Shown: one piece after another, positions 2,090-36,830 of the stretch
Numbering within the stretch: the stretch's first letter is position 1
How the letters are laid out: each line of letters begins with the position of its first letter
Origin: Gracilaria domingensis
Taxonomy: Eukaryota; Rhodophyta; Florideophyceae; Gracilariales; Gracilariaceae
Direction of reading: 5' to 3'
Assembly (NCBI GenBank): GCA_022539475.1
Contig: VCMS01000123.1
Span: forward strand, 1 to 64,000
Length of the DNA stretch: 64,000 bases
Position numbers and translations under genes: made by a program
The notes under the pieces: generated by a model
Seen by the model: the letters and a program-made list of their open reading frames with translations, nothing else
What the model was told of the DNA's origin: nothing
The model's database searches: none

Positions 2090-3989
2090 TCAATGGCGCA
2101 GAATACAGAATCGTAAACATTTACCCCCCTCGTACGGTGGTTGATAAAAGCAGCCAAACTGGTAGCGGCGGCAGGAGTGCTCGGATGTGCCAAGCCACAG
2201 CTTGCGTTCGTGAGAGGTGTTGAACTCCAGAGTTGAAGATTTCGCCCACCACAACGGCAGCTGGTGCGGCGCCGGGTGCGGCTCGCACGTGTTGTCGTGC
2301 AAGCTGCACAGATGCGTGGAGCAGTCATCCCAAAGCATCACATCGACAGCGGCGGCGCGCAGCGACATGAGACGCGGATCACTCGCGAGCGAGAAGCGGT
2401 GCGTGGCCACGCGCTGCGCCACGTCCCACACGAGCACCACGTTGTCCCGGCATCCCGACGCCACTCGCGCACCGTCGTCGGACATGGCCACGCTCTCGAC
2501 GGGCTCGGTGCGCCTGCAGCGCGTCGCCGACAGCGGCGCCGCGGCGCGTGTCCCACACGCGCACGTCGCCGTCGCCGTCGCCCGACGCGGCGCGCGAGCC
2601 GTCGGCGCACAGCGCCACGCAATACACATCGCCGTCGTGGCCGCGCAGCGCGTCGCACACGGCGGCGCCGCTGCGCACGTCCGACACGCGCACCGCGGCG
2701 TCGCCGCGGGACGCGAGCCGCCGCGCGTCCGCGCTGAACGATACCGCCCACACGCCGGCCGAGTGCGCGCGCAGCACGTGCGGCAGCAGCGCGCCGCTGG
2801 CGCCGTCCCACAGCCGCACCGTCCCGTCCTCCGACCCCGACGCGATCCAGCGTCCGTCCGCACTCACGCACACGCGAAGTATGTCCCCTTCATGCGCGCC
2901 CTCACTGCGGCTGCCGCTCTCTGGCTGCGCGCGCCTCACATCCCACACTCGAACGCTTCCGCCCCTCGTTCCGGCAAGCCCGACAGAGCCGTCTTCACTT
3001 GCACCCACGAATGAAACCTCACCCCCCCGACACCCCCTTGTATCACACCACTTTCGCTCCCATGCTCCCACACGCCATAGCCTCCATCATATGCACCCCA
3101 CAAAACCAGTTTCCCATCTTGGCTGAACGCTACGCTATTCACTAAATCTCCGGAATCAACAGAGTTCAAGTAACTTCCGCTCTTAGCGTCCCGCACTTCA
3201 ATCATTCCACGATACGATACCGTTACAATCAGTTCCCCATTTTCACTGAAAGCCACACTTGCCACAGAATCATCATTTCGTGCCTGCGCCTCATATATCT
3301 TTTCACCAGTCTCTGCGTCCCATACGTAAACTCCACCCTCTTCCAACACACAACACACCTTCCTTCCCGTCGAGTTCGCAGCAACGCACATGACATTCCC
3401 TTCCTCCCCACTCACAAGTTCCCGCGCAGTGCCACCGCCCTGCAGGTCCCACGTTACGACATTTCCGACATCTCGCAACCCGCACGCAACCCATCTCGAA
3501 TCTTCGCTCAAACAAATGCACGAAATTGTTGCTGTAGTCTTTCCAACACCAGTCTCCACGTCCCTCGCAGCGTCCCACTTATTCACATTATGATCAGCGT
3601 CCACATACACAACCATTCGTCCATCTTTTGACAACGCGGCGGGTCCAGATCCATGCCTTCCTATCTCTCTCCCAAAACGGTTTAGACTGCCGTGGGTTAA
3701 GTTGTACTTCACTATTTCCAACTTCTTAGGACACGAGACCAAGATTGTCAACTCACTCTTATGTTTTTGAATACTCACTACTCTCCCTTCCACTTTTATG
3801 CTCTCCAAATTGGCGCCGCCGGCAGCAGTCAGGAACCCTTCTTGTGCCTTCAACCATGGTTCCTCTCTCTTCTCTGCAATCTGTGCTACAACCTCTAGAA
3901 ACTCACGCGTCGTCTTACACTTCTCTGAATACGTTATCAGTCGTCCATACAGCTGGAACCATACCTCGCGTGGGTTTCGTGACACGGCG
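2090..3989 (-). pseudogene. NLR pseudogene 1: helical segment plus WD40 propeller, 5'-truncated
   Basis: The minus-strand frame from 3985 starts inside the conserved post-ATPase segment NPREVWFQL(Y/H)GRL, which is internal in the intact paralogues, so the whole N-terminus and NB-ARC are missing. WD-type repeats follow (WDxxTG, VWDxxSG, SGSxDxxVRLW). Two single-base shifts interrupt it. One falls in a 7-C run at about 3022-3028. The other is near 2505-2512, after which the frame resumes with a further WD repeat ending VVLVWD. The 5' break coincides with the outer edge of the foldback element at 3990. From about 2970 downward the GC content jumps sharply, as it does in pseudogenes 3 and 4. The 5' half is closely similar to the segment at 15811-16390. 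Confidence 0.85.
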
Positions 3990-4693
3990 GTAACGTCTCT
4001 TCTCCAGACATTTCTTCATCTTCAAATACTTGATATATATGGAAATGTTCAAAAAACGTTTTGAATTAAATCACACGTTTTAAACGCGTTTTATACGTAT
4101 TCAATACTGGACAACGTTCAAATCACGTTCAAAACATTACAGTGTATCTTCATGTACTGTAATTAAATTTTCTGACCATGGTGAATTCATTGGTTAAAAT
4201 TGAGCCGAAATTTCACCTCAAGCAGACATAATCTCTCAAGTCTGATGAGGCGACTTGAGGACTAGCGCAGGGCGCCGCGTGCAGGCGAGCGTGCGGCGGC
4301 AAGCGCGCGAGCACGCATGGGGTCGCTGCGGAGCAGCACGGGCAAACGCAAGCCAGCGCTAGCAGTCGTGCTGCGGTTTTTGCGTGGCGGGGCTGCTTTC
4401 AGGCGGTGTCGGACAAAATCTTATCAAGTCGCCTCATCAGACTTGAGAGATTATGTCTGCTTGAGGTGAAATTTCGGCTCAATTTTAACCAATGAATTCA
4501 CCATGGTCAGAAAATTTAATTACAGTACATGAAGATACACTGTAATGTTTTGAACGTGATTTGAACGTTGTCCAGTATTGAATACGTATAAAACGCGTTT
4601 AAAACGTGTGATTTAATTCAAAACGTTTTTTGAACATTTCCATATATATCAAGTATTTGAAGATGACGAAATGTTTGGAGAAGAGACGTTACT
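3990..4693. mobile_element. Foldback element with 270 bp inverted arms
   Basis: The left arm (3990-4258) and right arm (4424-4693) are near-perfect reverse complements. The outer motif is GTAACGTCTCTTCTCC and the inner motif is TGATGAGGCGACTTGA. The 165 bp spacer is GC-rich while the arms are AT-rich. No transposase ORF is present. It is a non-autonomous foldback or long-TIR MITE, possibly of the Mutator type, and it abuts the truncation point of NLR pseudogene 1. I could not identify a target duplication. Confidence 0.88.
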
Positions 4694-5817
4694 GTAGAGA
4701 CGCGAGCAAGAGACGGTGTTTATTGCGTAGAGTAGCGGCTCTAGCTCCCGCGGTAGGCGGGCGCTGACGGCCCTGGCGGGGTCGTCAGTGTCGTAGAACA
4801 GCACCCATGTCGAGGGGTGGCAGTTAGAACGGCGCACAGGCGCCGAACGGCCTCACGAGAGGCGTTCACTGTAGAATGAGAGCACGATGGTAATAACGAC
4901 CTTCTGAAACTCTGACCATCAACAGCAGTCGCGACTCAACCCGTCGCACAATAAATACCACTCTGAAAAGGGACCAAACAGAACCCTCTACAATCTCCCG
5001 CCATATCTCCTATTTCCCCCCGATAGCTTATCGATCCACATTACCGCCGTAATCCGCTGTTACAGAGCTACTACGTTTTCAAAGTTAATAAAACTGTTTC
5101 TATGTTCTTTGAGATATACCGTGCTTTTTTTCAGAAATGTAGTATTGCGTAAAACATCCAAAGAATACACAAAGATTCAAATACTGCAGATTCATTGAGT
5201 TAATGCGTAAAAACTAACAATTAAGCATTTACTAGATCGTTCTAACAAATTATCCATGACAGAGAAGTGATAAATATTTTGCGGAAAGTTAGGGGTACTG
5301 CTATATTAACACAAAGTTTTAAAATTTATTTGTCTTACTATAAAATCAAGATAAAGCTATAACCATCGTGAATTGGGCAAATGAGGTAGTTTTGCGCAAA
5401 TATCAACAAATTGCACATCTATATTTACCATGTGCAAATGGGGCTTATCTTCATCGGACTTTATATTTCATAAAGATGCTTCTTAAGAAGTAGTTATTAT
5501 TTGTGTACTAATAGTTTTTGAGCCATACACAGGAAAGTTCTCATTAGAAAATGTTAAACGTTATAAATTTTCAATTTTGTAGCAAAACTCAAAGTAGTTT
5601 TTGAGTATGTTCTTGTCGTAGTTTAGATGGGTTTGAGCATAAAATGTCGAACTTTAGTTGAAACATACTATGCATGTAAAAATATTTCCACTTCAAGAGC
5701 GTAGAGAGAACAATTGCAACTGAAGGAAAAAACAGAAAGTAAAAGAGATCGAAGTTTTGCACAACTACCGCGTTCAAGCGCAACTACCGCCCTTCATATT
5801 ATGTCCAAGGTGATTTT
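4694..5817. other. Intergenic: no gene recognised
   Basis: The first 200 bp are GC-rich and the rest strongly AT-rich. No coding segment with family features is visible. A short tandem pair of CAACTACCGC lies just before the Harbinger-like element, near 5762-5790. Confidence 0.5.
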
Positions 5818-9277: not shown

Positions 9278-9754
9278 GGGCCACCGATTCCAATTGTATA
9301 ACAGTTTGCTTTTTCTTATAAAACTGCGATTTTCCGCTGTTGCCATGGTTTTGCTTAGCAACAAAGTTCTATTCAACAACAACTTTGACGATATTTTTCG
9401 CACGTCCCGTTGCGGCTAGAACCGACATATCTAGATCTCAAAGTGATTGAGAAAAAGTGCAAATTCGAGCGCTTTTCCGCAAACAAATGACGTGGAACTT
9501 ACCCAACAACACGCTTCTATTGGCCGCGCTGACTTGGCGCGTATCTCAGCGCGAGATCACATAGCGCAAAGTTGGAAATGAGTTGGCTCCTTCAAATCGG
9601 GAACATCGCTGTCGATGAAATTCTTTCAAATCACAAACGAAGACTATGTCCATCAGCTTTCCCTTCTTCCTTCAACACGAAATATCTCGAACACACTCTT
9701 CTACGCAATCCCGGTTCGACCATCTAGCCAACGTTGAAAACCCATCATTCTTCA
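9278..9754. promoter_or_regulatory. 5' region of the TIR-NLR gene
   Basis: This 0.5 kb between the transposon and the TIR-NLR start codon should contain the promoter and leader. I see no convincing TATA or initiator motif. The Harbinger-like element ends less than 0.5 kb upstream of the receptor gene. Confidence 0.3.
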
Positions 9755-12700
9755 ATGGGACAAAATGTATCGTCTGCCAACACACACTCTCCTCGCATTT
9801 TCCTCAGTCATGCCGGGGAGGACAAGGAAACCATCGCCAGACCGTTGTGGAGGCGCCTTACCAACCTCGGCCTCTCCGTTTTTCTCGATGAGGATTCCTT
9901 CCGTCTCGGTGACCATTGCCCGAAGGTCATGGAACACGCTATGCAAACAGCCCCTGTCGGTCTCTTCATCATGAGTCCCGAGTTCGTGGCCAAGCAATGG
10001 CCAATGCGGGAGCTTCTGGCATTCGTTAGCCGTTACGACCGCGCCATCGCCGCCAAAGAGACTCCACCCTTGCTCATCTCAATCTTTTACCGTTTTACCA
10101 CTCGACAGTGCCGCGATCCGACCATCTTTCGTACCTATGGCGAACTGTTTGATCGACATGGTCTTTTCAAGCGAGCCATAGAGGGGACTATCTCCCTCAA
10201 AGCTGTATGGCATGCATTGAACATGTCCGCCACCCTGTGGAGCATTGAGAACGACCTCGGCGCGACAAACTCTCACCGCCCGAATATGGCCTCCACCAGA
10301 CAATGTTTCCTTGATATTATTCAGAACAGGATTTCGGAACTTCTTGGAGTTGAGGGACCTGAACTGGTTGACACAGGTCATCTAACGGTAGGCAACCAAC
10401 CAGAAGAAAAAGATGTGTACACTCCATGCAACATGGTGCCTCCAAATCCGCCAAGACTAACACTGGACTATGGTTCACCGACCACATGTGAAGGAAGGCT
10501 GAAGATTGCTGTTTTATGCAAAAGCAGGAGTCGAATTGTTGCTGTTGTAGCTGCCGGAAAAGGTGGCGTTGGTAAGACGTGCGCTTTGAGAGGGCTTGCT
10601 GAAGACGCTGAAGTAAGGCGGATGTTTCCTGGAGGCATTCTCTACATTGAGCTCGGATACGATGCGACAATATCGAGTATAGTGGAAGGAATTGCCGACA
10701 TTGTTCATGGCACGGGTGGTTCGAGCATTGCAAATGTGATAAGAGCAGGCAATTCTGTTGTGGGGGCATCCGAGAAGGCTTCAAAGTGGTTTGATCCACA
10801 TTCGTGCTTGTTTCTTGTAGATGACATTTGGCATGTTAATGGAATTGACTCTGATGTGTTGACCACTCTCGGGCAAATGGTGAACGCAAACAGTAGAATG
10901 GTATACACAACCAGAGACAGGTACTTTCTCGGTGAAGTCGAGGAAACACTGGAGTTCAAAGAGAAAGAAACGTTTGGAGGCTTGTCGCGTCAAATGTTGA
11001 TGACACATGCAGGATTTGAGCTGAATACCGCGCTTGACGGCAAGAATAAGGTGGCTTTTGAGTACTTTCTTGCGTTGTGTCAAGGACTTCCGCTTGGTTT
11101 CGGTATTGTCGGCAGTTCAGTACAGCGGTATGCGCTCGATTGCGTACGAAAGCAAGACGCATGGTCAGAGTTCTACAATGACGTATTATCGCAACGGAAG
11201 GACTTGATAGACACAGCGGCTCGGGCATATGGTGAACTACCAAGAATCGTGAACTCATCTCTTCAGGTTCTCAAGAAGCGTAGCGGACACGAGAAGTTTG
11301 GTTATTGGTTTCGGGCTTTAAGCGTGATTCAAAAGCAACAATCTGTTCCTGTTCAGATGCTACAGAAGCTGTGGGACTTGGATACGCTGCAAGAAGCCCA
11401 AACGGTGGTGGAAGCATTCGCTGACGTTTCAGTCTTGCAAATGACGAGGAACACCGGTTCGGTGTCTGTCGTGCTGCATGACCTAATACTGGATATCGCT
11501 GATCGCAGATCCACGGAAGAGAGTGAAACAGAAACCTTCTTTCGAACTCTTTTGAGCAATTATATCCTTTCTGATAACAGGAAAGAGAGACATGAAGCGG
11601 CTTCAAGTACAGGATTGTGCCACGCGTGGTGGGATGATGAGGATGACGGGTACCTACACAACAATCTTTGCAGAATGCTTCAAAACGCAGGGTATGTTGA
11701 CCAGCTATTGTGGCTTCTAACTCAACCGCAGTGGATTGTGCAGCGATTGTTGAAAGGTGGAGTTCTTGGTATAGAAAAAGACCTGAATCTTGGGAAAGAG
11801 GTGTGTGACGACCCCACTTTGCACGAGCATCTGCACATGATCGGTCAGGCTGTCAGGCTGAGCGCGTCGTTCGTCAGCAACAACCCCTGTATGGAGGAGG
11901 CTTGGTTCCAACTGCACGGGCGGTTACTCTGGCACTTGACACAGAACGAGTTGACGAGCGACTTTGTGCAGAGGATGGAAGGGAGTGCGCCGAAGCCATG
12001 GCTGAAAGCGTCTGCGGGGCTTCTGCAACAAGCTGATGGTAGTGTACTACAGGTTTTCAGCGTTCGAGGTGCCGTGCTGTGCACACGTGAAGAGTCAGAT
12101 GCCGTCTGGATTCTATCACGAGGTCCCCATGAGGATGTCATACATGTGGGAAGGCATGAGAGATCAAATGAGCATTACAAACAAGAGAGGCTCGAGGGCA
12201 CAAGTAGGACAAAGAGATGGATGGGAAAACTTCAATGTGCTTCGTTCTCATATGATGGACGCACGGTGGTGACAGCGCACGGAGACGAAGTCAAGGATTG
12301 GTGGATGCAGGTGTGGAATCTTGTATGTAACTGGCAAACAGGTGTTGTCTTTGTGTGGAACAGGCAAACAGGAGTTTGCCAGCATGCTGTTCCACACATT
12401 TGTCCGCATCATCGAAAGTTTGTCAAATTTGTGTCCGATGGGGCTCAGCTGGCCTGCCAGAGGCACGACAACTCCATTCAGTTATGGGAGACGGTTAGCG
12501 GCAAACCGGTGGGGCGGCCGTTCCCATCCCACGCAGACTGGGAGAGGTACCAGCCGCTTACGGCAGAAGCCACTCAGTTGGTTTCATGCTTCAGGGACGA
12601 CATGCTGCGTGTGTGGGACGCTGAACATGGCCACGACTGGGGGCAGACGCTCGAAGGTCGCGCTCACACAGTGAAGCACGTGGCAGTAAGTGCCGACGGG

Positions 12701-13195
12701 ACTCGCATCGCGTCAGGCTTAGACGACGATACGGTAATTGTGTGGGACGCACACACTGGCGAAATCGTGGCGAAGCCGTTCCTACATGAAGCACACATGG
12801 TAAGGTGCGTCGCAGTGAGCGCCAATGGCACTCATGTTGTGGCGGGAGATGCAGAAATGCTACAGCTATGGGATTTGGACCGCACTCACGTTGGGCGGGA
12901 AGAACGTTCCGACACAACATCATCTGATGAAGAAGTGCCTCGGCTGTTCCGGGAGATGAAAGAGTCCTTAAAGTGTGTGTTGACGTCTCGTGATGCTGCG
13001 TGGCAGGGCACTATTGAAAAGCTCGACCTCACGTGGTCCACGCCATTTTGGAGGCCATTACGGCGCGAGGTGTGCGACCTGGCCGAAGACGGCTCTGAGG
13101 TTGTGCTGGGCAGCTGTGAAGAATATGTGGCCAACGTCAACGGTGGAGATGTGTACTTCACGAGAGACTTCAGATCGTGCCGGATTGTGCGGTGA
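9755..13195 (+). CDS. TIR - NB-ARC - Apaf-1-like helical - WD40 receptor (NLR-like)
   Basis: A single exon of 1,146 residues, read from the ATG at 9755 (the frame is open a little upstream without an ATG). Residues about 14-150 form a TIR domain: FLSHAGED (16-23), GLSVFLDED (39-47) and WPMRELL. Glu86 in the last motif aligns with the catalytic Glu of NADase TIRs (SARM1, plant TIR-NLRs). The linker VPPNPPR precedes an NB-ARC with Walker A GKGGVGKT (268-275), Walker B LFLVDDIW (352-359), YTTR sensor, GLPL (444-447) and an MHD-like LHD (574-576). A helical segment with GYLHNNLCRML and QPQWIVQRL resembles the Apaf-1 helical domain. WD repeats follow (VWDAEHG, VWDAHTG, LWDLD). All motifs are intact. 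I infer a cytosolic ligand-sensing ATP switch that activates TIR enzymatic signalling. Confidence 0.9.
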   Translation: MGQNVSSANTHSPRIFLSHAGEDKETIARPLWRRLTNLGLSVFLDEDSFRLGDHCPKVMEHAMQTAPVGLFIMSPEFVAKQWPMRELLAFVSRYDRAIAAKETPPLLISIFYRFTTRQCRDPTIFRTYGELFDRHGLFKRAIEGTISLKAVWHALNMSATLWSIENDLGATNSHRPNMASTRQCFLDIIQNRISELLGVEGPELVDTGHLTVGNQPEEKDVYTPCNMVPPNPPRLTLDYGSPTTCEGRLKIAVLCKSRSRIVAVVAAGKGGVGKTCALRGLAEDAEVRRMFPGGILYIELGYDATISSIVEGIADIVHGTGGSSIANVIRAGNSVVGASEKASKWFDPHSCLFLVDDIWHVNGIDSDVLTTLGQMVNANSRMVYTTRDRYFLGEVEETLEFKEKETFGGLSRQMLMTHAGFELNTALDGKNKVAFEYFLALCQGLPLGFGIVGSSVQRYALDCVRKQDAWSEFYNDVLSQRKDLIDTAARAYGELPRIVNSSLQVLKKRSGHEKFGYWFRALSVIQKQQSVPVQMLQKLWDLDTLQEAQTVVEAFADVSVLQMTRNTGSVSVVLHDLILDIADRRSTEESETETFFRTLLSNYILSDNRKERHEAASSTGLCHAWWDDEDDGYLHNNLCRMLQNAGYVDQLLWLLTQPQWIVQRLLKGGVLGIEKDLNLGKEVCDDPTLHEHLHMIGQAVRLSASFVSNNPCMEEAWFQLHGRLLWHLTQNELTSDFVQRMEGSAPKPWLKASAGLLQQADGSVLQVFSVRGAVLCTREESDAVWILSRGPHEDVIHVGRHERSNEHYKQERLEGTSRTKRWMGKLQCASFSYDGRTVVTAHGDEVKDWWMQVWNLVCNWQTGVVFVWNRQTGVCQHAVPHICPHHRKFVKFVSDGAQLACQRHDNSIQLWETVSGKPVGRPFPSHADWERYQPLTAEATQLVSCFRDDMLRVWDAEHGHDWGQTLEGRAHTVKHVAVSADGTRIASGLDDDTVIVWDAHTGEIVAKPFLHEAHMVRCVAVSANGTHVVAGDAEMLQLWDLDRTHVGREERSDTTSSDEEVPRLFREMKESLKCVLTSRDAAWQGTIEKLDLTWSTPFWRPLRREVCDLAEDGSEVVLGSCEEYVANVNGGDVYFTRDFRSCRIVR

Positions 13196-14938: not shown

Positions 14939-15793
14939 TTAGTTGTTTACGGATACATGTGACGGGCTGTGAAGTGGAACACATTCCATGTTCAAATACT
15001 CTGCCGCTGCTACTGATCTGGCCAACTCTACATCTGGAGCCACTAAGCCAGCAATAAGGGTCGCAGCCAATAAACATATTGCAATCAACCATAGTACATA
15101 CCCTCGCACCAGAACAGTTTCTATCCCCGCATAATGATCCAAATCAGATCGTTTTGAAGTCTTCACAGGTCCCAGAGGCCACTCGGAATGGTTCTTTGGC
15201 ACCGAATAGAAGAGAAAGTCGTCGGCGGAAAGAAACTCGTCCGAAAGCGACAGAATGCTCAGAAAAAGTCCTTTTGCAGTGTCAAGCAGCTCGTTCTGGT
15301 TTCCTACACACCGAGAGGCATTTGCGTCGTAAACATGTAAGTCGTCAGGGTACATCGAGAACATGGTTGGCGACCTCTGCGAACAGTTCTTCTGAACGGA
15401 GATTCGGTCTATCATCCAGGTCACGAACGCGATCGGATCGTTCAGCACCTTGCTACTGTTCAGCTTCGTCATAGGCCCCGTCGAGTGCAATGTGGTTTGA
15501 ATCACAAGCACTCTAGTCTCGTTTGAGGATTGCATCAGAAATCCCATGTTGTAGTATTTATCTCTGGTGACAGACACATATATACCGTGTTCTATATATG
15601 GAATGCCAGAGTCTTCTATGGGTTTTTGGGTGACGCAAAGAGAGAAGGGCTTGTACACAATCGAATTCTTTGATTGTACCAACGTTGTGCAACCTCGGGA
15701 GATATTCGCTGAGAAAGTTGCTCCGTCGTACATCATGAATTGAGGTTTCCTGATCTGCAGATCTTCCATATTGAAACTGACGTATTTGTTGGA
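14939..15793 (-). CDS. Terminal exon of a single-pass membrane protein, truncated by an NLR fragment
   Basis: The exon begins after a strong splice acceptor, a pyrimidine tract ending TTCTTCTCGCAG at 15796-15794, and encodes about 280 residues. Most form an extracellular-looking region with many N-x-S/T sites (NIS, NET, NSS, NCS, NAS, NHS). A transmembrane segment near the C-terminus (LWLIAICLLAATLIAGLVA) and a short tail follow. Only about 15 bp upstream of the acceptor, at 15811, the DNA switches to NLR pseudogene 2. The 5' exons are therefore missing, or the NLR block sits inside the intron. The topology resembles the membrane proteins at 48.7-52.6 kb, but I cannot show homology. Confidence 0.55.
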   Translation of the reverse strand, partial: SNKYVSFNMEDLQIRKPQFMMYDGATFSANISRGCTTLVQSKNSIVYKPFSLCVTQKPIEDSGIPYIEHGIYVSVTRDKYYNMGFLMQSSNETRVLVIQTTLHSTGPMTKLNSSKVLNDPIAFVTWMIDRISVQKNCSQRSPTMFSMYPDDLHVYDANASRCVGNQNELLDTAKGLFLSILSLSDEFLSADDFLFYSVPKNHSEWPLGPVKTSKRSDLDHYAGIETVLVRGYVLWLIAICLLAATLIAGLVAPDVELARSVAAAEYLNMECVPLHSPSHVSVNN

Positions 15794-15810
15794 CTGCGAG
15801 AAGAAAAACA

Positions 15811-17190
15811 GCCACCGCCCTGCAGGTCCCACGTTACGACATTGCCGACATCTCGCAACCCGCACGCAACCCATCTCGAATCTTTGCCCAAACAAATGCA
15901 CGAAATTGTTGCTGTAGTCTTTCCAACACCAGTCTCCACGTCCCTCGCAGCGTCCCACTTCTTCACATTATGATCAGCGTCCACATACACAACCATTCGT
16001 CCATCTTTTGACAACGCGGCGGGTCCAGATCCATGAATTCCTATCTCTCTCCCAAAACGGTTTAGACTGCCGTGAGTTAAGTTGTACTTCACTATTTCCA
16101 ACTTCTTAGGACACGAGACCAAGATTGTCAACTCACTCTTATGTTTTTGAATACTCACTACTCTCCCTTCCACTTTTATGCTCTCCAAATTGGCGCCGCC
16201 GGCAGCCGTCAGGAACCCTTCTTCCGCCTTCAACCATGCTTCTTCTCTCTTCTCTGCAATCTCCGCTACTTTCTCCAAAACCTCACGCGTCGTCTTACAC
16301 TTCTCTGAATACGTTATCAGTCGTCCATACAGCTGGAACCACACCTCGCGTGGGTTTCTTGACACTGCATCCTGGCTTAGTCTCGCCGCCTGTGCAATCA
16401 CTTCCAGTGCCCTCTTCTTCTCTTCCTTCCGTTCTATGCTTGAACGACCGAGTGCTGTTTGCGCATTTGAAACATCATTCTCAACAGCAAATATTCCGCT
16501 CTCCGTAAGACGCTTCGCTATCCACTGAGGCTTCAATAGAAGCCAAAATCCCCTAAATCCCGTCTCTTCAACAATCTCCGCAATCTTTCCGCTGAGATCA
16601 ACCATCTTAGCATCTGCTCCCAGTTGCATAAACTGCACACCATCCGGGAACCTGGTTCTGACATCAGCCAAACCACTGCTCAGTCCCCGAAGAGCGCAGG
16701 TCTTTCCAACTCCGCCCCGCCCTGCAGCCACAACCGCTAGCACTTTGTGCTCCGATGTTTGCAGCACGGCTGCTTTGAGTTTCCCCTCAAACGTCTGCGA
16801 AGATTCGTAATCCAGAGTGAGTCGTGGTGGATTGGGCGGCACGGTTCCATGTTTCAAAAAGTGGACGTCAGTTTGTGCCAAATCATCATCGTCTGTAACT
16901 GCGACTCCTCTCTCTCTTACGAACTCTTCAAACTTCTCCACTGTGCTCTCGACTTCGGTCAGGGTTTGGTTTGCGAGCTGTACTCTATGCAGTAGCGTAG
17001 CACTCGCAACGTCTGGCGACAGCTTGACGCACCTTTCAGTCGCCTGTTGCAACCTAGTTCTTCAAATGCACAGCATGTGAGACGAAGAGTGTTCTCGACC
17101 TGATTCGTTGATCCAACCTTCAACACGTTGGAGGTGTTGTTCGAGCAGTGGTTGAACTTCCTTCAATCTTTCGCGGTTTCGCGATGCCAT
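15811..17190 (-). pseudogene. NLR pseudogene 2: helical N-module, VPPNPPR linker, gutted NB-ARC, partial WD40
   Basis: It starts at the ATG at 17190 (ASRNRERLKEVQPLLEQHL, a helical module). A TGA at 17062-17064 interrupts it where pseudogene 3 has TGG. The frame continues through VPPNPPRLTLDY and Walker A GRGGVGKT. An in-frame internal deletion of roughly 320 codons follows, joining the segment after IAEIVEETG directly to the helical block (KPQWIAKRL). Walker B, the sensor, GLPL and the MHD-like motif are gone. The NPREVWFQLYGRL block and the first WD-type repeats follow, then homology stops at 15811 (WDLQGGG). The 3' part is nearly identical to pseudogene 1. ATP hydrolysis is not expected. 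Confidence 0.85.
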
Positions 17191-18038
17191 GTCGTGGCGC
17201 CGAACAGGGGTCTTGAGTTTGAGTTCTATGTGCTCTCACATTCGGCTGAGAAGCATTCGCGGCCAAATATGTCAGGATGAGTTGATATTCAGATCATTTG
17301 TGCACTTGGTGAGCAGTTGCGGCTGGTATCCCCTAATCCTGGGACTGTTCATGTTGAGATCTGTCGCTAGATCCGCTCTGGTCCCGGAGTAGGACTGGCA
17401 GAAACAGCACTGTCCGGTGTCGCGGCCCGCGGGTGGGCTTTTCCGACGGACGGAGCTGAGACGCACAGTGGCGGCCCGCGGGTGGGCTGCGGCTTGCATG
17501 TGCAACGCAACTTACGGCTGCTGCGGGGAGCTGCGTCGCGCTTGCGGACTTACAGCCCTGCGTAGGGCTGCGTTGCGCTCGGTCAAGGACCGTCGTGAAG
17601 CTGTAGTTTACTGAGTAGATAGAGTGAATACGATAGGTTAGTTACCACTAGACTAAACAGGACTGCTACCGATCCAGATCTAAGTACTACTGCGCCGCCG
17701 CCGCCGGCGGCTAGCGCGACCAACGACGCATTCAGCGCTTTAGCCGCCGTCGTCGAACACGCCGCAGCTTGCGGAGGGTCCCCCACGAGCGTCTCCCACG
17801 ACAGTTCAAGAATACTGGGTTTTCTAGGCACGGTAAGTGGATTTACGTGAGCGGATTGATACTGGTCAGACTCAAGATGCTCCAGCGAAACCCACACATG
17901 GGGGTGCGTCCGCTCGCGCTCCCGTCGCACTCCGCTGCGCTCCTCGTTTCCGTCGCGATCGCATGTATGGGAGCAAGTCTTCCTTTGAGTTTAGGCGCGT
18001 CCGATGGGACCGTCAGCGTTCACATAACCTCTACTACA
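17191..18038. other. Intergenic with a short direct repeat
   Basis: No gene is visible. The 18 bp word GCGGCCCGCGGGTGGGCT occurs twice, about 50 bp apart, near 17421 and 17472. Just upstream of 17190 the sequence still aligns with the DNA upstream of pseudogene 3 (ACTCAA, CCCCTGTTCGGCGCCAC), so the ancestral NLR 5' region extends to about 17215. Confidence 0.45.
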
Positions 18039-19206: not shown

Positions 19207-19250
<44 letters not shown>

Positions 19251-21064: not shown

Positions 21065-24000
21065 TTACTCGCATTCCTTCCCCGAATCAGCGTCCCACGC
21101 GTGAATCCCCCCGCCGTTATAGTACGCTGCTATGCGTCCGCCGTCAGCACTCACTGCAACGCCGTAAACACCGCTGGTGTGACCGACAAACGGCGGCGTC
21201 AGCTGCTTGCCGCTACTCGCGTCCCACACACGTACTGTCCAGTCCCTAGACCCCGACACAATGCGCCTGCCGTCCGCACTTATCGCAACGCAGGAAACCA
21301 ATTCAGTGTGACCGAAACACGGTGGCGTCAGCTCGTTGCAGCTACCCGCGTCCCACACACGCACCGTCTTGTCCAAAGACCCCGACACAATTCGCCCGCC
21401 GTCCGCACTCACCGCAACGCAGGTAATCTCGTCGGTGTGACCAAAAAACGGCGGCGTCAGCTGCTTGCCGCTATTCGCGTCCCACAAGCGCACCCTTCTG
21501 TCCGAAGACCCCGACACAATTCGCCCGCCGTCCGCACTCACCGCAACGCAGGTAACCGCGTCGTGACCAAAAAATGGTGGCGTCAGCTGCTCGCCGCTAC
21601 TCGCGTCCCACACTCGCACCATATTGTCTTGAGACCCCGATACAATGCGCCTGCCGTCCGCACTCACCGCAACGCAGGTAACCAATCTAGTATGACCGAC
21701 ACATGGCGGCGTCAGCTGCTTGCCGCTACTCGCGTCCCACACACGCACCGTCCTGTCCCAAGACCCCGACACAATGCGCCCGCCGTCCGCACTCACCGCA
21801 ACGCACGTAACCCATCCAGTATGACCGACACATGGCGGCGTCAGCTCCTTACCGCTACTCGCGTCCCATACTCGGATCTGATGCTCTCCATCAGTGGACG
21901 TCACTCGTGTACCGTCACAGCTGAACGCCAAGAAGTTCTGCTCACAGCCAGTATCGGCGCACTTGACCACTCGCTTCATCCTCCCTGTTTCTATATCCCA
22001 CGTCTCGATTGTTCCATTCCCATCCCGGTCCTTTCCAGCAGTGACGACGCTGTTCTGCTCTGAAAGGATCACTCTGCAATCTACTCTTGTGTTGTGCATT
22101 TCTTCAGTGACGAATGGTTCGGATCTGCAAACTCCACTCTCGCTCCGATATTCCGTGACGCCGGGAGACTCTGAACCCCATGAGAACCAAATTCCATCTC
22201 GCTCTATGGTCACGCAACGTGGCCTGCTCGGGCTGTGTATGATTTCAAGCAGAGCACCCGGAGGTTGCAAAATCCCCAAAGAAGCTTGCACCCACGGTCG
22301 TGGCGCACACCTCTCAATTTCCCTCACAAACGTTTTGGTATGCTTGCATTTTTCCGCGTGCTGCAGCAGGCGTCCGTGCAGTTGAAACCAAACTTCACGA
22401 GGGTTGGAAGCCACTGCGGTGCAGCCCATCCGCGCAGCTCTGCCGACCATGACCAGATGGTCCTTGTGATCCGAATAGCCTTGCCTGCTCTCGTTCGCAA
22501 TCGCTATGCCATGCCCCAAGTCCTGCTCAACGGCGTAGATCCCGCTGCTTACGAGACGTTTTGAAATCCATTGCGGCCTGGACAGCAGCCGAATCAGCAG
22601 GAACGCAAGCCCGCCCTCCCGAAGAAGTCTACACACATTGTCGTAAAAGTACCCGTCTTCTTCAATCTCCCACCACTCGAACGACGGGTCTCCACAGCGA
22701 CCATCTGGAAAGTAGCTGTGAACAAGGTTTTGAAAGATTCTGCATCTCTGACGACGTCCTTCCGCCATCCAAACTGAAATCTCGAGAACTAAATCATGTA
22801 GCTGCAAGAACACCAGATTTCCTTCCACCCATTTTTGCGCAATGGACACTTCTCGAAACCTGTCCACAACCTTCTCAGCATCGGCCAAGGTCTCCATGTT
22901 CCACAGCCTTTGGAGCATTTGCACGGAAACCTTTTGCTGCTTCTGAAGAACGCACAAGTACCGAAAGCGCTCCGCATACACTCCTTCCTTGTTATTCCTG
23001 TCCAAAACCTCAAGAGAAGTATCCACGATAATGGACAGCTTATCCATTATATTACGTCCTTTTTTGGCCATTGTGTCGGTATAGAACTCTGACCATGCGT
23101 CCTGTTTTCGCTCAAGGCGCAGAGCACGGGAGATTGTCCGCACCGCACTTCCAGCAATACCATGTGCCAGAGGGAGGCCGTCGCACATATCCAAGATGGA
23201 TTCGAATGCTTTCCTGTTGTTCTCATCGAGGACACTCTCATCGAGAGCACCCAGCTCTTCGGATCTCGCATGATTCATCAACATTCTGCGTGACCGAGTG
23301 CCGTTCACTTCATTCCTCTCAAACATGACACACTCTTCGTCACCTAGGAATCTTTCATCTCTTGTGGTATACACCAATCGACTCTTTTCGTTCACCATTC
23401 TGCCCAGAATCTTGAGCACATAGCTATCAATCCCGTTCACCTTCCAAATATCATCCACGAGGAAAAGACAAGTATGGGCGTGAAACCAGTTCGAGGCGAG
23501 GTCGGCGGCGTCGCTCAACGATTTCATCCCCTTTATCTTGTCGGCCATTTGTTTCCCGCCCGTCTTGTGCACGATAGCCGAGATTGCTGAGATAATGCTT
23601 TGAATGGTAGCGTCGTTGCCGAGCTGTATGTACAACACTCCTCCAGGAAAGCTGCTCCTCACTTCACTGTGCGTTGCTAGACCTCGCAGAGCACACGTCT
23701 TGCCAATGCCGCCTTGTCCGGAAGCGATCACAGCGACAACGCGGGCTTCACTTTTCGCAAGTACGGCGGTCTTAAGCTTGCACTCGTTGGTGGTGGGTGT
23801 GTCGTAGGCCAGTATGAGTCTCGGTGGATTTGGCGGAACGGTGTTGCGGCTGATTTACTGATCTGGTTTGGAAAGTTCAGTCGGCAGCATGGGGGAGATT
23901 TTGTTCAGCAGGAAGTCGACAAAGGTTTCTAGGCGCGTCTGGCAACCATCAAGAACGTCCTTCATGCGGCGAACACGTTTGAAGCGCTTCGCGGTGTTGA

Positions 24001-24271
24001 TGGGCTCACTCCATGATTCGAGTTGTTCGACGTCATCCGCAAATGTTTCCATGTGAAAGCTGAGTAGCTCGAGCGTGACAATGTCCGGGTGGGTGACGTA
24101 CTCAAGACGACGAAGAATGTTGGTAACGGTTTTGTACAGGCGTTTGAGATCAGCAAGTTGTCGTTTGTTGTCTTCCTTGATGTCGCCACGGTTGTACCAC
24201 TCGTTGACGATGGTTTCAAGCTTGGATAACACTGTGAGACCGGGAGCTACCAAGTCGAAGTAGGCCGACAT
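21065..24271 (-). CDS. Helical N-module - NB-ARC - Apaf-1-like helical - WD40 receptor, with one in-frame TAA
   Basis: From the ATG at 24271 (MSAYFDLV), 138 residues form a helical, coiled-coil-like domain. A TAA at 23857-23855 follows, and the same frame continues for 929 codons to 21065. The part after TAA carries VPPNPPRLILAY, Walker A GQGGIGKT, Walker B LFLVDDIW, YTTRDER, GLPL, an MHD-like LHD, the Apaf-1-like helical block (YFYDNVCRLL, RPQWISKRL), NPREVWFQLHGRL and a propeller whose last six WD repeats are about 43 residues each and nearly identical. All NB-ARC motifs are intact, so TAA is the only lesion. It may be a nonsense allele, a sequencing error, or a boundary giving a free N-module. 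The first ATG further upstream (24556) adds only a low-complexity extension. Function by family: ATP-switch recognition receptor. Confidence 0.85.
21090..21880 (-). repeat. Array of six near-identical 129 bp WD40 repeat units
   Basis: Units repeat every 129 bp (one is 126) and each encodes WDASSGxxLTPPxxGHTxxVTCVAVSADGxRIVSGSxDxxVRVW-type repeats. Spacing is visible from the recurring word GGCGTCAGCT at about 21191, 21322, 21451, 21577, 21706 and 21835. Differences cluster at the two residues after GHT and around SGSxDxx. The DNA is as conserved as the protein, which implies recent amplification or gene conversion. Confidence 0.92.
23855..23857 (-). other. In-frame TAA between N-module and NB-ARC linker
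   Basis: The codons read CCA GAT CAG TAA ATC AGC, with VPPNPPR seven codons later in the same frame. No plausible intron spans it, because the GTAAAT just after CAG is only 9 bp from the next usable AG. Confidence 0.85.
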
Positions 24272-25362
24272 TTTGTCTGCGGAAGAGGGGAAACGTCTCG
24301 GGCGCAGCGGGGAGGGTGCGCGAGTTGGGCAGAATGAGGGCGGCGTGCGGCAATGGCACCAGCGAGAAGGTGCGGGAAGGGAGGGCATAGGATGATGGCC
24401 GAATGGTGTGCGTTGCTGCTTCATGGCATCTTCCAACGGGGAGCGTAGTTGGCACGCAACACACGCCAGTCGCGGCATCGAGGCAAAGGCAGCCATTTCG
24501 ACTCTGGAGATTCTCGGCGTGTGATTACGCCACACGCCACACAGGTAGTTTACCAATCGGAAAGCGCGCTAAGTTCAGCGGCGAAGGCGAAGCAGCGCTG
24601 CCGTAGATGTAGAAACGTTTTTTCGAAGAATCGTGATATAAGGTTACCGAAGGTAGCAAACTCTCTGGGGAGGCGGTTTCGCTATATCACCATCACGTGA
24701 CTGGTCCCACAATCGTTAGATCAGGAGAGAGAGGGAAATGGCAAGTTTCGGAATACTTTCATGACAAACGTAAAACATTTTTTATTTTTATACAAAAGGT
24801 TCATAAATATATTCTAGCAAGTATCATTGCTGTTGCGTCGTAAGCAATGTGTTGTACGTAGAAGTTTTGTAAGTTGATCGCTGTTCTTCTCCGATACCTG
24901 ATCGTAGATCTACGGGAAATATGTTGATACTTCCGCTATCTCGAAATGAGAACTCGTGTTACTCGCATTTACTTTGAGCTAACCGTGTCAATTGTAGGCG
25001 TTCTGAGAGATCAATGCAAGATCTATAGAAGCATCCAAGCCTCACTTTGCTACAGTTTAGTAAAACATGTTAACATTGTCTTACAATGTGTTCCAAATAG
25101 CGATATGAGCGGTATATATTGTTGTTGGGAACGGCAAACTTTTTGCTATATGAACTTGAATATTATTCATTTCAACATAATTCGTTACGTTTATGTCACA
25201 TGCACTGAAGTACTCTAATCCTACTACGACTGCCCGACAACTTTTGCGTCATACCATCGTTCTGCTTCCTGCTTCGTCGATACCTGAAATAACGCCATAA
25301 TCCCGAAACACAAGGACGTTGAACATGTTCAACTGACATCGAATTACTAATTTATTGAATGA
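24272..25362. other. Intergenic with the second 52 bp repeat
   Basis: This holds the presumed promoter of the minus-strand NLR (24272-24730), the right copy of the 52 bp repeat, and AT-rich DNA without a recognisable gene up to the CaaX-protein gene. Confidence 0.45.
24733..24784. repeat. 52 bp direct repeat, right copy
   Basis: Identical in sequence and orientation to 20588-20639. A few bases upstream are also similar (GGAGAG followed by a GGG run). It may mark a duplicative insertion or recombination that brought in the NLR block. Confidence 0.95.
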
Positions 25363-29849: not shown

Positions 29850-30068
29850 CTATCAACCCCAACTACGTCTGCTCAAAACCTTTTACGCAGAGGCGCAACT
29901 TTTACTTCAGCGCCTTGAGCACGCCCCCACATAACACCGAGACCATCACCACATTACTTCAATGTCAAACCGTCCTGCAACAGCACTTGGGCCACCTCGC
30001 TGCGCTCGCTTCGTCGATGGAATCCATCGGAAATCCGAGTAAAACCCACTTATGTGGAGAACAAACTC

Positions 30069-31320
30069 AACGCCCCCGTTCGCCGCCACCACTTGGCATC
30101 CCGCAGCCGCGAAAGGCTTGACCACGTCCAACGACTGCTCGAGCAACATCTCCAACATGTTGAGGCTTGGATCAACCAGTCACTTGTCGATCGGTCGTCG
30201 CCCCACATGCTGCGCATTTGGGAAAGTAGGTTGCAGGCTGCAATTTGCACCACGTGAAGAACAGATGCGTGCAAATGTCGCCCCACGTTGAGAGTGTTAC
30301 TCTGTTGAACAGAGTACAGCTCGCGAATCAAACCTTGACCAAGGTAGATAGCACAGACGAACAGTTTGCAAGGTTTGCATCGGAGAGAGAAAGAGTGGCG
30401 GATACAGACGCAAGTGATTCAGCTCAACCTGAACCCAAGTTTTTGAAACATGGCACTGTCCCGCCCAACCCACCTCGACTCTCTCTGAACTACCATTCTC
30501 CGCACACGCCCGAGGGAAAGCCAAAGGCCGCCGTATTGCGACCATCAAAGCACAAAGTGCTTGCGGTTGTGGCCGCAGGGCGGGGCCGAGTCGGGAAGAC
30601 CTGCGCGCTTCGGGGACTAAAATGTGTGCGTAATGTCGAAACTAGCTTCCCGGATGGTGTGCATTTTATGCAACTGGGAAAGGACGCCAGAATGGGTGAA
30701 TCACAGCCCAGATTGCGAATATTGTTGAGAGAACTGGTAACCAGAGGCTCGCGAGTGACATTCGTGGCGGAAAACTGTCGGAAGCTGTGAATAAGGCTAG
30801 GCAATAGTTTGTGAATCACACATGTCTTTTTCGGGTTCACGATGTCTGGAAGGGGAACGATACGTTGGTGCGAGTGCAGACGGGTCGATGGGGCTTGTTG
30901 GAACGTGGGAAGGGACGATGGGAGTGTGGGATGTGAGGCGCGCGCAGTCGGGGAGCGACAGCTGCGGTGAAGACGCGCATGAGGAGCGTATATTGTGCGA
31001 GGGTGTGAGCGCGGACGGGCGGTGGATTGCGACGCGGTCGATCGACGGGGCGATCCGCGTGCGGCACGGCGCCAGCCGCGCGCGGAGTGCGTGGCGCTGT
31101 GCGCCGACGGCTCTCGCGCCGCGTCGCGCCACTGCCACGGCGACGTGCGCGTGCGGCACACGCGCAGCGCCGGCGCCGTGTGCGACGCGCTGCGCGCCCC
31201 CGCGGACGAGCTGGGCACGGTCACGTGCGTGGCCGAGTCGGCCGACGGCGCCGCGCGTGTGCGCGCGTGGATACGAGGAACACGTGGTGCCCGCGTGGGA
31301 GGTGGCGCAGTAGACAGCTT
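30069..31320 (+). pseudogene. NLR pseudogene 3: N-module, linker, partial NB-ARC and WD40
   Basis: Homology to pseudogene 2 starts upstream of its ATG, and here that codon is TTG (30093). The helical module (SRERLDHVQRLLEQHL) runs to a frameshift near 30250. VPPNPPRLSLNY and Walker A GRGRVGKT follow. Past about 30690 the frame shifts again (IANIVERTG in another frame), a TAG falls just before the Walker B region (FVNHTCLFRVHDVW), and an internal deletion then fuses the remnant directly to GC-rich WD repeats (YVGASADGSMGLVG, VWDVRRAQSGS). It shares the WD region with pseudogenes 1 and 4. At least three lesions are present, so no function is expected. Confidence 0.8.
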
Positions 31321-32372: not shown

Positions 32373-33490
32373 CTTCCAGACGCGGACGTTAGTATGGACA
32401 TTGCTGTTGCTCTCGACCCTAGAAAGCTGTCATGATTCGACAACAATCTTGGTTCACAATACGTCGTAGCATCATTACGTTGGGGCAGCCCACTGATTGG
32501 CTGCTGCGCACGGCATATGCGCCAACAATGCGCAACGATAAGTTTAGTTCGTTACAGCACACGTGTGTGCGTCAGCAAAATTCCTGTCCCCAAAATAAAG
32601 ATGTGCTCATACGCTAATCGATACACACATACCTGATGCGCTGTTGTTATGCAACAAGCACAGCAACTGCGCTCTTCACGCAACGCATGACAATCAGTGT
32701 ATTTCAATCCCCCGTCAGGAGCGACGCTAAGAACTTGTGAGCCTCTCCTCGTCTGGCTCATAGCTTATTGCTTGGGCCCAATGCGTACCTGATTATTGAG
32801 CACATATCGATAACATCGTGAAGAACCCTTCTTGCCCAGTGCAGATGTATGTTCTATCCGATTTCGATTCGCATTGGAGGCAGCAACCACGTCTTTAGCC
32901 AGCTAATCATGCCGCACGGTCCGCTTGATTGTTGCAATGCTGTAGTTGCATTGATTCCCACAACAGAGATGGAAGCAATTTAATTGATAGCACTGGGAGT
33001 CCACTTGTTTCTTGGAATTCAGCTGACCATCATAAACATATAGGTTACATTTGTAACTACAAATGAAAAAGAGCGTAGTTGGTGTCGAGAGCTACACGGA
33101 GATATTGTTCTCTCGTCGCAATTGGACAAATTTCTTCGCAACTACACTCTACGATTATCGATTCGATCCCAAGCATTTGCGACGACATAAGTCTTTCCCC
33201 TTGCTGGTACCATTTCTTTGAGTTTCTTTAATAGTAGAAAAAGCCATGACGGCCAAATTCACGATGGAGTGCAGGCTCCGAATGGAGGTGAGCAGAACGT
33301 ATTTGAGATCGACAGCCCATCTTAAAGCTGAGAAAACCTTGTATACCACACAAACCTCACAGCCACATTTCCTCGCCACGCGCTAGAGCTTGCAACCAAT
33401 TCCAAGAGCTCTATTAACGCTGTTGAGAGATAATCTCCATCCAAGACTTCAACCCCTGCAGTTCTGTTGGCTTCATCAAAACAAGTGATC

Positions 33491-34684
33491 ATGAAGACTT
33501 CACATTTCTTTCTTCTTCTGCCGGTTCTACTTTTCACTAAGATATTTGCTCAGAGTGGATCCGTCGAAGCCATAGGAAGATGCCCCGCGACATGTTTTCC
33601 AAGCATAGAAGACGCTTTTAGGGAGTGTGCTCGCTTCCTGACAATTGGATGTGTCCTAACTCCGTGCGCTGCTGGTGGTTTTGGATGCCCCATTCCTGAT
33701 CCAATCGAAACCGAGAACGAGGTTCTTCCTGGAGGAGAAGTTCTTATCGATGGTCTAAACGTTCTAGACTTTTTTCAATTCAAGGTGAATTTGAACACAT
33801 CCTTCCCGTTGCGAACAGACCTCTATCTTCTGAGTGACGCGACAGGATCTGTTTCCGCGGCCATTGGTGAGATAAGAACCCGATTCACTGAAATTGTCGA
33901 TCTCTTTGAAGGAGAAACCAACGCTCAATTCGGAATTGGATTCTTTCGCGATGAAGAAGACGAAGGATTGGATAATGGATTTTCCAATTTGCAAGGCATC
34001 ACCAGCGATCGCTCTGCTGTGACCAACGCAATTCAGTCACTCAACGCAATAGATGGAGGAGATGCTGATGAAGCCAATCTCGTCGCTCTGCACAAGGTAG
34101 CCACGGACCCAGCGATTGGATGGAGAGAGAGCACTCGAAGAATTCTAGTTTACTTTGGTGACTTTCCTGGTCATGAACCTACCTGCGTGGAGGGAAAGAC
34201 GCTGACAAGGGAATCAGTTATTAACGACTTGCAGGAATTGAACATAACAGTGATTGCTGCCAGCTTTGGGCTGCCTGGGCTTGACGGCACGCCAGATTCA
34301 TTTGGATGCAGTTCTGGAAGTGCAGGTCCCGGTCAGGGCACGGCCATATCATCAGCAACTGGTGGTATTCTTGTGCCTAATACCCAACAGACGGAACTTA
34401 TTGAAGCGATCGAAAGAGCCGGGCGAGGTTTGAGTAGGACCTTTGATCTCGACAGCTCAGACTGTGACGGCATGCTGACCACTTCCACTGATCCCTCTTT
34501 ACCAATTACTCTTGGTCCCGATGAATCACAAGTTCTGGACCAAATTGTTCAGATTCAAGCCGGAGTGTGCGCGGGAGGAAACACTTTTGAATGTGTGCTG
34601 GATTATACTGAATCCGGAGCTAGTCTTCCGCCCACGACCGTTAAGCTTGTGAACATTCAAGGATGTCCAGACTTCGGTTTCTGA
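33491..34684 (+). CDS. Secreted vWA-domain protein with integrin-beta-like signature (copy A)
   Basis: The ATG at 33491 starts a signal peptide (KTSHFFLLLPVLLFTKIFAQ), giving 397 residues. A Cys-rich N-terminal part (CPATCFPSIEDAF, CVLTPCAAGGFGC) precedes a vWA domain starting DLYLLSDATGSVS, where D-x-T-x-S fits a MIDAS. Next come ITSDRSAVTNAIQSL, GGDADEANLVALHK, IGWRESTRRILVYFGDF and a second metal-site-like Asp. The order GGD - ALHKVAxDxxIGWR - ILVYFxD resembles the integrin-beta I-like domain. The C-terminus has four Cys and no membrane anchor. Extracellular adhesion or matrix binding is inferred. It is closely duplicated at 38987-40180. Confidence 0.8.
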   Translation: MKTSHFFLLLPVLLFTKIFAQSGSVEAIGRCPATCFPSIEDAFRECARFLTIGCVLTPCAAGGFGCPIPDPIETENEVLPGGEVLIDGLNVLDFFQFKVNLNTSFPLRTDLYLLSDATGSVSAAIGEIRTRFTEIVDLFEGETNAQFGIGFFRDEEDEGLDNGFSNLQGITSDRSAVTNAIQSLNAIDGGDADEANLVALHKVATDPAIGWRESTRRILVYFGDFPGHEPTCVEGKTLTRESVINDLQELNITVIAASFGLPGLDGTPDSFGCSSGSAGPGQGTAISSATGGILVPNTQQTELIEAIERAGRGLSRTFDLDSSDCDGMLTTSTDPSLPITLGPDESQVLDQIVQIQAGVCAGGNTFECVLDYTESGASLPPTTVKLVNIQGCPDFGF

Positions 34685-35989: not shown

Positions 35990-36047
35990 AGTCAGTCAAA
36001 GTCAGTAAAAAAAGCGCCGTAGTCAGTCAGTCACCGATACGGGCCTG
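35990..36047. mobile_element. Right end of another hAT-type MITE
   Basis: The stretch has repeated GTCAGTCAGTCA words and ends CACCGATACGGGCCTG, matching the right terminus of the family (ATACGGCCCTG). No matching left end or 8 bp duplication was found, so it is a remnant. It directly abuts NLR pseudogene 4. Confidence 0.65.
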
Positions 36048-36830
36048 GTGGGATGTGAGGCGCGCGCAGTCGGGGAGCGACAGCCGCGGTGAAGACGCGC
36101 ATGAGGAGCGTATATTGTGCGAGGGTGTGAGTGCGGACGCGCGGTGGATTGCGACGCGGTCGATCGACGGGGCGATCCGCGTGTGGCACGGCGCCAGCAG
36201 CGCGCTGCCGCCGCACGTGCTGCGCGCCGGCCGCGAGTGCCAGGAGCTCTGCCGATTCGCTTTGTCGTGCGTTTCGTTCAGCGCCCACGCGTGGCGGCTC
36301 GCGCGCGGCTTCGCGCTTTCGTATGCGACGCGCTGCGCGGCCACGAGAGGCGCGCGGAGTGCGTGGCGCTGCGCGCCGACGGCTCTCGCGCCGCGTCGCG
36401 CCGCTACCACGGCGACGTGTGCGTGAGGCACACGCGCGGCGGCGGCGCTGTGTGCGACGCGCTGCCCCCCCCCCGCGGACGATGTCGGCACAGTCACGTG
36501 CGTGGCCGAGCCGACGGCGCCGCGCGTGTACGCGCGTGGATACGAGAAACAAGTGGTGCTCGCGTGGGAGGCGGCGCAACGCGTGGCCACGCACTGCTGC
36601 ACCCTGCGCGCCATGCCCGCGTTTCTCTGCACGCCGCCGCCGTCGACGCGATGCTCGACGATGGCTCCGCGAGTCGGTGCAGCCTGGAGCGCTCGACGTG
36701 CGGGCCGCACCCCGCGCCGCACCAACTGCCGCTGGCGCACCCAACGCTTACGTTGGAGCCCGCTGCCTCGCGCACCCGCAAGCTGTGGCTTGGCACAGCC
36801 GAACAAGCTGTTGATGGCTACGCAGTGTAG
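36048..36830 (+). pseudogene. NLR pseudogene 4: GC-rich WD40 fragment
   Basis: It starts at GTGGGATGTGAGGCGCGCGCAGTCGG, the WD-repeat word (WDVRRAQSGS) also found in pseudogenes 1 and 3, and continues through degenerate repeats with several frameshifts. The end (HPAPHQLPL, RKLWLGT) matches the C-terminus of pseudogene 1. It retains about 190 bp in the middle that pseudogene 3 has lost. The NB-ARC and N-module are absent. The extreme GC content leaves long but meaningless reading frames on both strands. Confidence 0.75.

Follow-up and report, generated by a model that had tools for sequence, protein, structure and literature searches.

What are the receptor-like genes in a 64,000-nucleotide stretch of a red seaweed genome, and what might they recognize? 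The stretch, referred to here as the window, comprises positions 1 to 64,000 of contig VCMS01000123.1 (C123 in our numbering) of the florideophyte red alga Gracilaria domingensis, the genome assembly of which (GCA_022539475.1) consists of 77.9 Mb in 680 contigs. A sequence-only reading of the window had assigned it to a lineage that is apparently neither plant, animal nor fungus, which is corrected here, although the check across red algae that it proposed suits the actual host, and had described six loci that share one NB-ARC-WD40 chassis with different N-terminal modules (N-modules). Our tblastn searches, for which members of the family served as queries (E up to 1e-6), indeed merge into six regions. 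Two copies with all motifs and four pseudogenes had been claimed; the four relics stand, but only the TIR copy is a single open frame, the helical copy being interrupted by two in-frame stops, and the window is one intact TIR receptor with the debris of five others. We consider it probable, at roughly two chances in three, that these genes belong to a repertoire of non-self receptors, cytosolic switches of the Apaf-1/NLR type, with a WD40 propeller that diversifies in part of the family.

Across the genome, 88 NB-ARC matches, all over the cut-off, were found on 55 contigs, 46 of them within open frames of at least 1200 codons. Upstream, at a near-constant distance, there is a TIR domain in 27 cases, the helical module H1 in 26 and the helical module H2 in 24; the rarer modules are H3 (two cases), H4 and H5 (one each), and 6 of the 88 have no assigned module. 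A third H3 (locus L026, contig C53) was found through BLASTP clusters, and all family counts are lower bounds, each search scoring its best candidates only. This count of N-module types, which had been suggested as a check, gives 27 TIR and 50 helical modules for the 88 NB-ARC domains and supports, genome-wide, the existence of an NLR-like, Apaf-1-ordered family with different N-modules on one chassis. Homologues are also present in Gracilariopsis and Agarophyton. The possibility that the N-modules are assembly chimeras has so far found no support, the modules recurring in assemblies and transcripts of other species.

The case for diversifying recognition is built on a hypervariable WD40 surface, a feature found in this analysis and absent from the earlier reading. 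The helical copy of the window, an H1 member, has near-identical copies on contigs C15 and C137, both open through the two positions at which the window copy has stops. Ahead of the WD40 array, the chassis of these three sisters (785-787 residues) is 94.0-96.3% identical, with nonsynonymous differences (pN) of 0.018-0.028, synonymous differences (pS) of 0.034-0.125, and pN/pS ratios of 0.22, 0.23 and 0.51. The arrays themselves consist of 7 units in the window copy, 11 in C15 and 8 in C137. After 8 edge or off-register units were dropped from these 26, each of the remaining 18 carries a different combination of residues at positions 5, 7, 23 and 25. At these four positions, pN is 0.549 and pS is 0.334, compared with 0.100 and 0.144 at the other positions, corresponding to ratios of 1.64 (bootstrap 1.07-2.86) and 0.69 (0.51-0.96), respectively, and the set ranks 4 of 123,410 four-position sets in amino-acid diversity, three sets being equal or higher. 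The spacing of the four positions (i, i+2, i+18, i+20) is that of codons 7, 9, 25 and 27 in the het-d/het-e units of Podospora, which are subject to positive selection and lie on the top of the propeller; the residues flanked by these codon pairs, 8 and 26, are subject to purifying selection (PMC1805685, PMC2873952). In the Gracilaria units, the flanked residues are V/I6 and D24, and we infer from the spacing and these two conserved residues that the numbering shifts by two between the Gracilaria and fungal units. Positions 5, 7 and 23 are also spaced like R1-2, R1 and D-1, contact sites on the top face (PMC3419727). Because the match in spacing was made when the diversity table was already known, independent support comes from replicates.

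In Gracilariopsis chorda, 18 of the 20 units of three proteins were kept, and six positions were picked on G. chorda alone. When transferred to the Gracilaria units, these six sites yield a pN/pS of 1.49 versus 0.71, and none of 20,000 random six-position sets matches their pN; the two genera have 4 of the top 6 variable positions in common (P 0.0017), with a Spearman correlation of 0.51 (p 0.0004). In two distant H3 receptors of G. domingensis, L021 and L015 (16 of 17 units used, 15 of them distinct), the four-site set ranks 2 of 111,930, with a pN/pS of 2.18 versus 0.64. At the protein level, 7 of 7 combinations are distinct in Chondrus crispus P0061, where the units are 83% alike, and 8 of 11 in Agarophyton chilense P0125. 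The combination of near-identical units, variable unit number and four-site top-face diversity that characterizes the fungal HNWD proteins was found only among the H1 sisters and in the H3 pair. A tandem-repeat scan of the 26 longer loci (L011-L036, with L023 shortened) produced calls near 126-129 bp only for L021 (11.8 units), L015 (4.8 units) and, weakly, L032 and L033 (about 2). The arrays of L021 and L015, which had been suspected of being TPRs from their 126-bp period, turned out to be WD40. At L021:2461-6789 (contig C33), the public protein is 833 aa long with NB-ARC alone listed; the open frame encodes 1443 aa with 12 WD40 stretches, and the repeat array seems to have been lost in the public annotation.

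Several observations weigh against a diversifying repertoire. The TIR copy of the window has diverged repeats without a tandem-array call, and many other members are similar in this respect. In many WD40 proteins, sites on the top face rank among those that vary most. Among proteins with an internal identity of 0.5 or more, the site contrast of ten NLRs (five named as red algal, the rest assumed to be so), 3.5, is not significantly different from that of four other WD40 proteins, 2.9, one of which is a fungal NACHT protein (P 0.37), the raw four-site diversity being greater in the four others (2.12 vs 1.77 bits). The site contrast is thus unsupported as a red algal speciality when set against other repetitive WD40 proteins and, because it is not special in itself, the argument is carried by the pN/pS above 1 and by the array differences between the sisters. 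Taken by gene, the six sites picked on G. chorda yield a ratio of 0.83 for the window helical copy (four usable units), 1.44 for C15 and 2.33 for C137. The units do not group by gene copy (856 of 5000 permutations were as high), so that concerted evolution within copies is not supported. Furthermore, the pN/pS values derive from non-independent pairwise counts, the array lengths come from assemblies, which could mis-join repeats, and G. domingensis is represented by one genome.

The chassis to which these arrays belong is that of an NLR-like STAND protein. The TIR copy matches the Pfam families TIR_2 (1e-13), NB-ARC (2.6e-10) and WD40 (4e-13), and an APAF-1-like winged helix falls just under the cut-off (E 5e-6, 26.9 bits against 27). 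The Walker A, Walker B and GLPL motifs are present in the NB-ARC domain, with an MHD-like motif in the winged helix of the TIR copy, and an N-terminal effector module and a C-terminal repeat sensor are combined within one protein. The NB-ARC, winged helix, helical domain and WD40 propeller follow each other in the order of Apaf-1. Such an order had been claimed from the letters alone, and two lines of evidence bear it out: the chassis sequence matches Apaf-1 (E 3e-7), and the apoptosome is the top PDB match of the full-length TIR-copy model (5e-28), the predicted local distance difference test (pLDDT) score of which is 71, dropping below 50 in places in the TIR part. The contrast drawn with the plant NB-LRR order holds as well, the C-terminal part being WD40 in the window copies and six scanned members, with no leucine-rich repeats (LRRs) among the best 25 families listed for each. 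No CARD was matched in the ten N-modules scanned, the N-terminus being TIR or helical. The TIR domain of the window copy matches the PDB entries 7uxr (5e-13) and 8g83, AbTIR (5e-12), and is nearest to bacterial TIRs, among them the NAD(+) hydrolase AbTIR. Its Glu86 (codon 10010), in a W-x-x-x-E-L motif, aligns with bacterial TIRs including AbTIR, and we take this Glu to be the catalytic residue. The receptor starts with MGQNVSS (9755-9775, + strand), as does its homologue P0001, a possible N-myristoylation signal.

The helical types 1 and 2, previously treated as distinct, belong to a single family as two of its branches: the alignment of H1 with H2 spans 120 columns, with an hhalign probability of 96.9% (E 1.4e-10), and the two share one BLASTP cluster. 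Kinship of H3 with H1 or H2 was considered and is not supported (hhalign probability 0.5% and 0.3%). The H1 module is modelled as four long helices (pLDDT 79). A Foldseek search with the helical module model gave no match at E 0.001, and no Pfam family among the 25 listed of 95 was common to more than 4 of 17 helical modules, the lowest single E-values being those of DUF3837 (4e-5, one member) and WASH_WAHD (4e-4, two members); the best PDB sequence match (E 0.0047) is to a protein other than MLKL, HeLo or RPW8. By eye, the module resembles these three, but none of them was matched by Foldseek, in the listed Pfam families or by PDB sequence; they are also missing from the 50 VIA matches listed, which does not in itself exclude them. 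The module therefore appears to be an uncurated one, present upstream of 50 of the 88 NB-ARC matches. A single-copy N-module at L014:2320-2862, on an NB-ARC-WD40 chassis, has a weak MLKL_N match (E 0.038, below the cut-off).

In a non-self receptor assembled from these parts, the top face of the C-terminal WD40 propeller would bind a ligand, the NB-ARC and winged helix would swap ADP for ATP and then form a wheel, and assembly of the wheel would bring the N-modules together. The N-module of the TIR class would be a probable NAD+-cleaving enzyme and that of the helical class a four-helix bundle, which might execute or relay a signal for defence or death. The propeller of several members would diversify as near-identical WD40 units of 42-43 residues are gained, lost and reshuffled, and amino-acid change focused on the top-face residues could endow each copy with its own specificity. 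More tentatively, and with the odds against it, the family might be an allorecognition or non-self repertoire built like the fungal heterokaryon-incompatibility NLRs, with shufflable WD40 arrays, the top-face residues of which would be under selection, on an NB-ARC switch and either TIR or a new four-helix module as executioner. If so, cell fusion, the coalescence of thalli and fusing parasites would be under its surveillance, and one sensor design would have been reached independently by fungi and red algae.

An unlikely alternative, to which the similarity of the chassis to Apaf-1 lends some weight, is that the genes regulate programmed cell death or development in the manner of Apaf-1, with units that spread by neutral unequal exchange and four sites that vary because they are exposed at the surface and unconstrained. 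The similar site contrast of other repetitive WD40 proteins would fit such regulators, as would the high internal identity reported for a considerable number of prokaryotic, fungal and protist WD40 proteins (PMC5587647). However, the four-site pN/pS exceeds 1 over the whole bootstrap range and reaches 2.18 in the H3 pair, and dozens of members accompanied by many relics fit a family in turnover better than a single-copy regulator.

Whether the N-modules are interchangeable, as claimed at the outset, depends on the history of their junction. The coding DNA of VPPNPPR, the linker between N-module and chassis, occurs at four sites of the window (10436, 16823, 23820 and 30458) and never in shuffles, in agreement with the four loci for which it had been reported; the other two loci lack the NB-ARC half and are therefore uninformative on its conservation. 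In a first NB-ARC tree (62 domains, 28 from this genome and 34 from other sequences), TIR requires five changes and the helical class three, as many as the starred branches force. A second tree retained 40 of these rows, after removal of long-branch, distant and near-copy rows and of crown rows with an unassigned N-module. There, the TIR clade that includes the window copy (support 100/99) has as its sister (100/99) the helical clade that includes the other window copy (100/98); the TIR clade sits inside the helical branches, and a topology that holds the helical rows together was rejected, if narrowly (approximately unbiased (AU) test, p 0.043). Probably, although this is borderline, a single swap of the N-module at the linker explains the TIR/helical difference in the VPPNPPR clade. 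Different modules on one chassis are supported, but with one such change in this clade, free shuffling is not. We regard as quite improbable a free, ongoing system that swaps N-modules between chassis: the junction motif and chassis common to TIR and helical modules, the nesting of the TIR clade and the occurrence of TIR on distant NB-ARC branches (L011, L012, P0027) would all be expected of it, but the H2 rows in the tree form one clade and one change accounts for the crown TIR rows, in a tree with 28 rows from this genome against 88 NB-ARC matches in all. That the VPPNPPR-NB-ARC block is part of a mobile element and its copies dispersed debris is hardly credible: the spread over 55 contigs, relic clusters such as the one on contig C70 and a DDE_Tnp_4-like transposase remnant in the window (46538-47416, - strand; E 0.003, below the cut-off) point that way, but 46 of the 88 NB-ARC matches lie in long open frames, the sister chassis have pN/pS ratios well under 1, homologues exist in Gracilariopsis and Agarophyton, and no transposase, which the sequence-only reading had named as the finding to look for, has so far appeared among the best 25 families listed for each of six members.

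The coordinates of the six loci in the window are collected in Table 1.

Table 1. Receptor loci of the window and their parts
Feature	Position	Strand	Evidence
Intact receptor gene, TIR-NB-ARC-helical-WD40, a single open frame of 1146 aa	9755..13192	+	Pfam, open frame, structure model; tblastn region 9728-13192
TIR domain	9797..10042	+	TIR_2 match, PDB matches
VPPNPPR linker, N-module/chassis junction	10436..10455	+	Motif search
NB-ARC domain	10532..11125	+	Profile search; Walker A, Walker B and GLPL starting at 10556, 10808 and 11084
MHD-like LHD in winged helix of TIR copy	11474	+	Residue position
WD40 beta-propeller region, diverged repeats (TIR copy)	12071..13192	+	Pfam, model
Helical N-module, family H1, predicted four-helix bundle	23858..24271	-	Profiles, model; tblastn region of locus 20864-24415
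In-frame stop between helical module and NB-ARC	23855..23857	-	Comparison with C15, C137
NB-ARC-helical-WD40 chassis of helical copy; NB-ARC 23099-23761	21068..23854	-	Profile search, Pfam
Second in-frame stop of helical copy	21065..21067	-	Comparison with C15, C137
Tandem WD40 array, 129-bp unit, 5.7 copies, 83% match, variable top-face positions	21132..21868	-	Tandem-repeat call
Relic, helical H2 copy; internal deletion joins N-module and Walker A to helical/WD40 part	15754..17235	-	tblastn
Relic, helical H2 copy, broken frame	29943..31267	+	tblastn
Relic, H2-like copy; C-terminal helical and WD40 part	2093..4003	-	Pfam, tblastn
Relic, WD40 repeats alone	36049..36809	+	tblastn

The WD40 relic at 36049 is flanked by two near-identical, secreted-looking tandem ORFs (33434-34684 and 38930-40180, + strand), the first of which has vWA/integrin-beta-like Pfam matches below the cut-off. 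Farther along, there are two similar-looking membrane-protein ORFs (48745-50181 and 51075-52631, - strand) with no Pfam match at E 0.01, and a 1356-aa ORF (56564-60634, + strand) that looks hydrophobic in its N-terminal part and has Sel1 repeats (E 7e-19) in its C-terminal part. Elsewhere in the genome, 15 of 42 TIR matches have no NB-ARC match behind them; on contigs C394, C457 and C305, the TIR domain lies in long open frames (873, 873 and 1453 aa, respectively) with no NB-ARC match within 2 kb behind. Contig C70 holds a decaying cluster of seven NB-ARC matches with H2 modules, three of them with internal stops.

Red seaweeds can fuse, form chimaeras by coalescence and harbour close parasites, and we know of no molecular explanation for their discrimination between self and non-self. 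Chimaerism in these algae has been described (PMC5325190). A family with a diversifying sensor supplies candidate genes that can be named and, in each repeat, four residues on which to focus, as well as candidate disease-resistance loci for seaweed farming. Fungi and red algae would, moreover, have arrived at one recognition design from different switch and effector parts.

The family is not, as had been suggested, part of an undescribed system, red algal NB-WD40 and TIR-NB-WD40 families having already been published (PMC7145615, PMC6928737). Chondrus crispus has 61 NB genes, of which 58 are NB-WD40 and 23 of these 58 include TIR (PMC7145615; see also PMC9806590); of the 7 NB-ARC+WD40 genes of Pyropia in a table passage, 3 are up 1.5-2.2-fold in red rot disease, and NBS+WD40 structures are mentioned for Porphyra (PMC6928737); a paper on Ulva mentions NB-ARC/WH/APAF1_C/WD proteins of Rhodophyta (PMC8891106). 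These genes of Chondrus, Porphyra and Pyropia have the same domain set as those of G. domingensis, belong to the same phylum and, judging by Chondrus, are similar in number. The relevant passages of the Chondrus account name TIR, DPP6-like, YVTN and TBPIP, without a four-helix N-module or an analysis of WD40 arrays (PMC7145615), and in the literature searched, with most subscription journals outside its scope, we found neither the helical module nor hypervariable WD40 arrays described for red algae. The three sister genes with 7, 8 and 11 units and four-site change appear to be new, and the distant H3 pair repeats their pattern.

Among more distant systems, plant TIR- and RPW8/CC-type NLRs, fungal HeLo and animal MLKL bundles likewise provide a TIR or four-helix N-module on NB-ARC, but the sensor of plant NLRs is an LRR, in contrast to the WD40 of the G. 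domingensis family. The NB-ARC family of brown algae is also expanded and suspected of a role in immunity (PMC11378527, PMC8307928), but features TPRs and, according to a cited title, exon shuffling, whereas the family described here consists of long single frames with WD40. The Apaf-1/Dark apoptosome scaffolds have the same order of NB-ARC, winged helix, helical domain and WD40 and are the best sequence and fold matches; they differ in the CARD, which is replaced by TIR or the helical module in G. domingensis, and in that the latter has a large multigene family. The HNWD proteins of Podospora anserina (HET-D, HET-E, HET-R) are similar in the STAND switch, the near-identical units, their variable number and the four-position spacing, but combine a NACHT switch with a HET effector (PMC1805685, PMC2873952), whereas the algal proteins combine NB-ARC with TIR or the helical module; no HET domain was matched in the ten N-modules scanned. 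We therefore file the family as NLR-like in its predicted function, partly HNWD-like in its sensor and Apaf-1-like in its order, outside HNWD because it has no NACHT or HET and outside plant NB-LRR because it has no LRR. Probably, the HNWD and red algal sensors converged on the same design.

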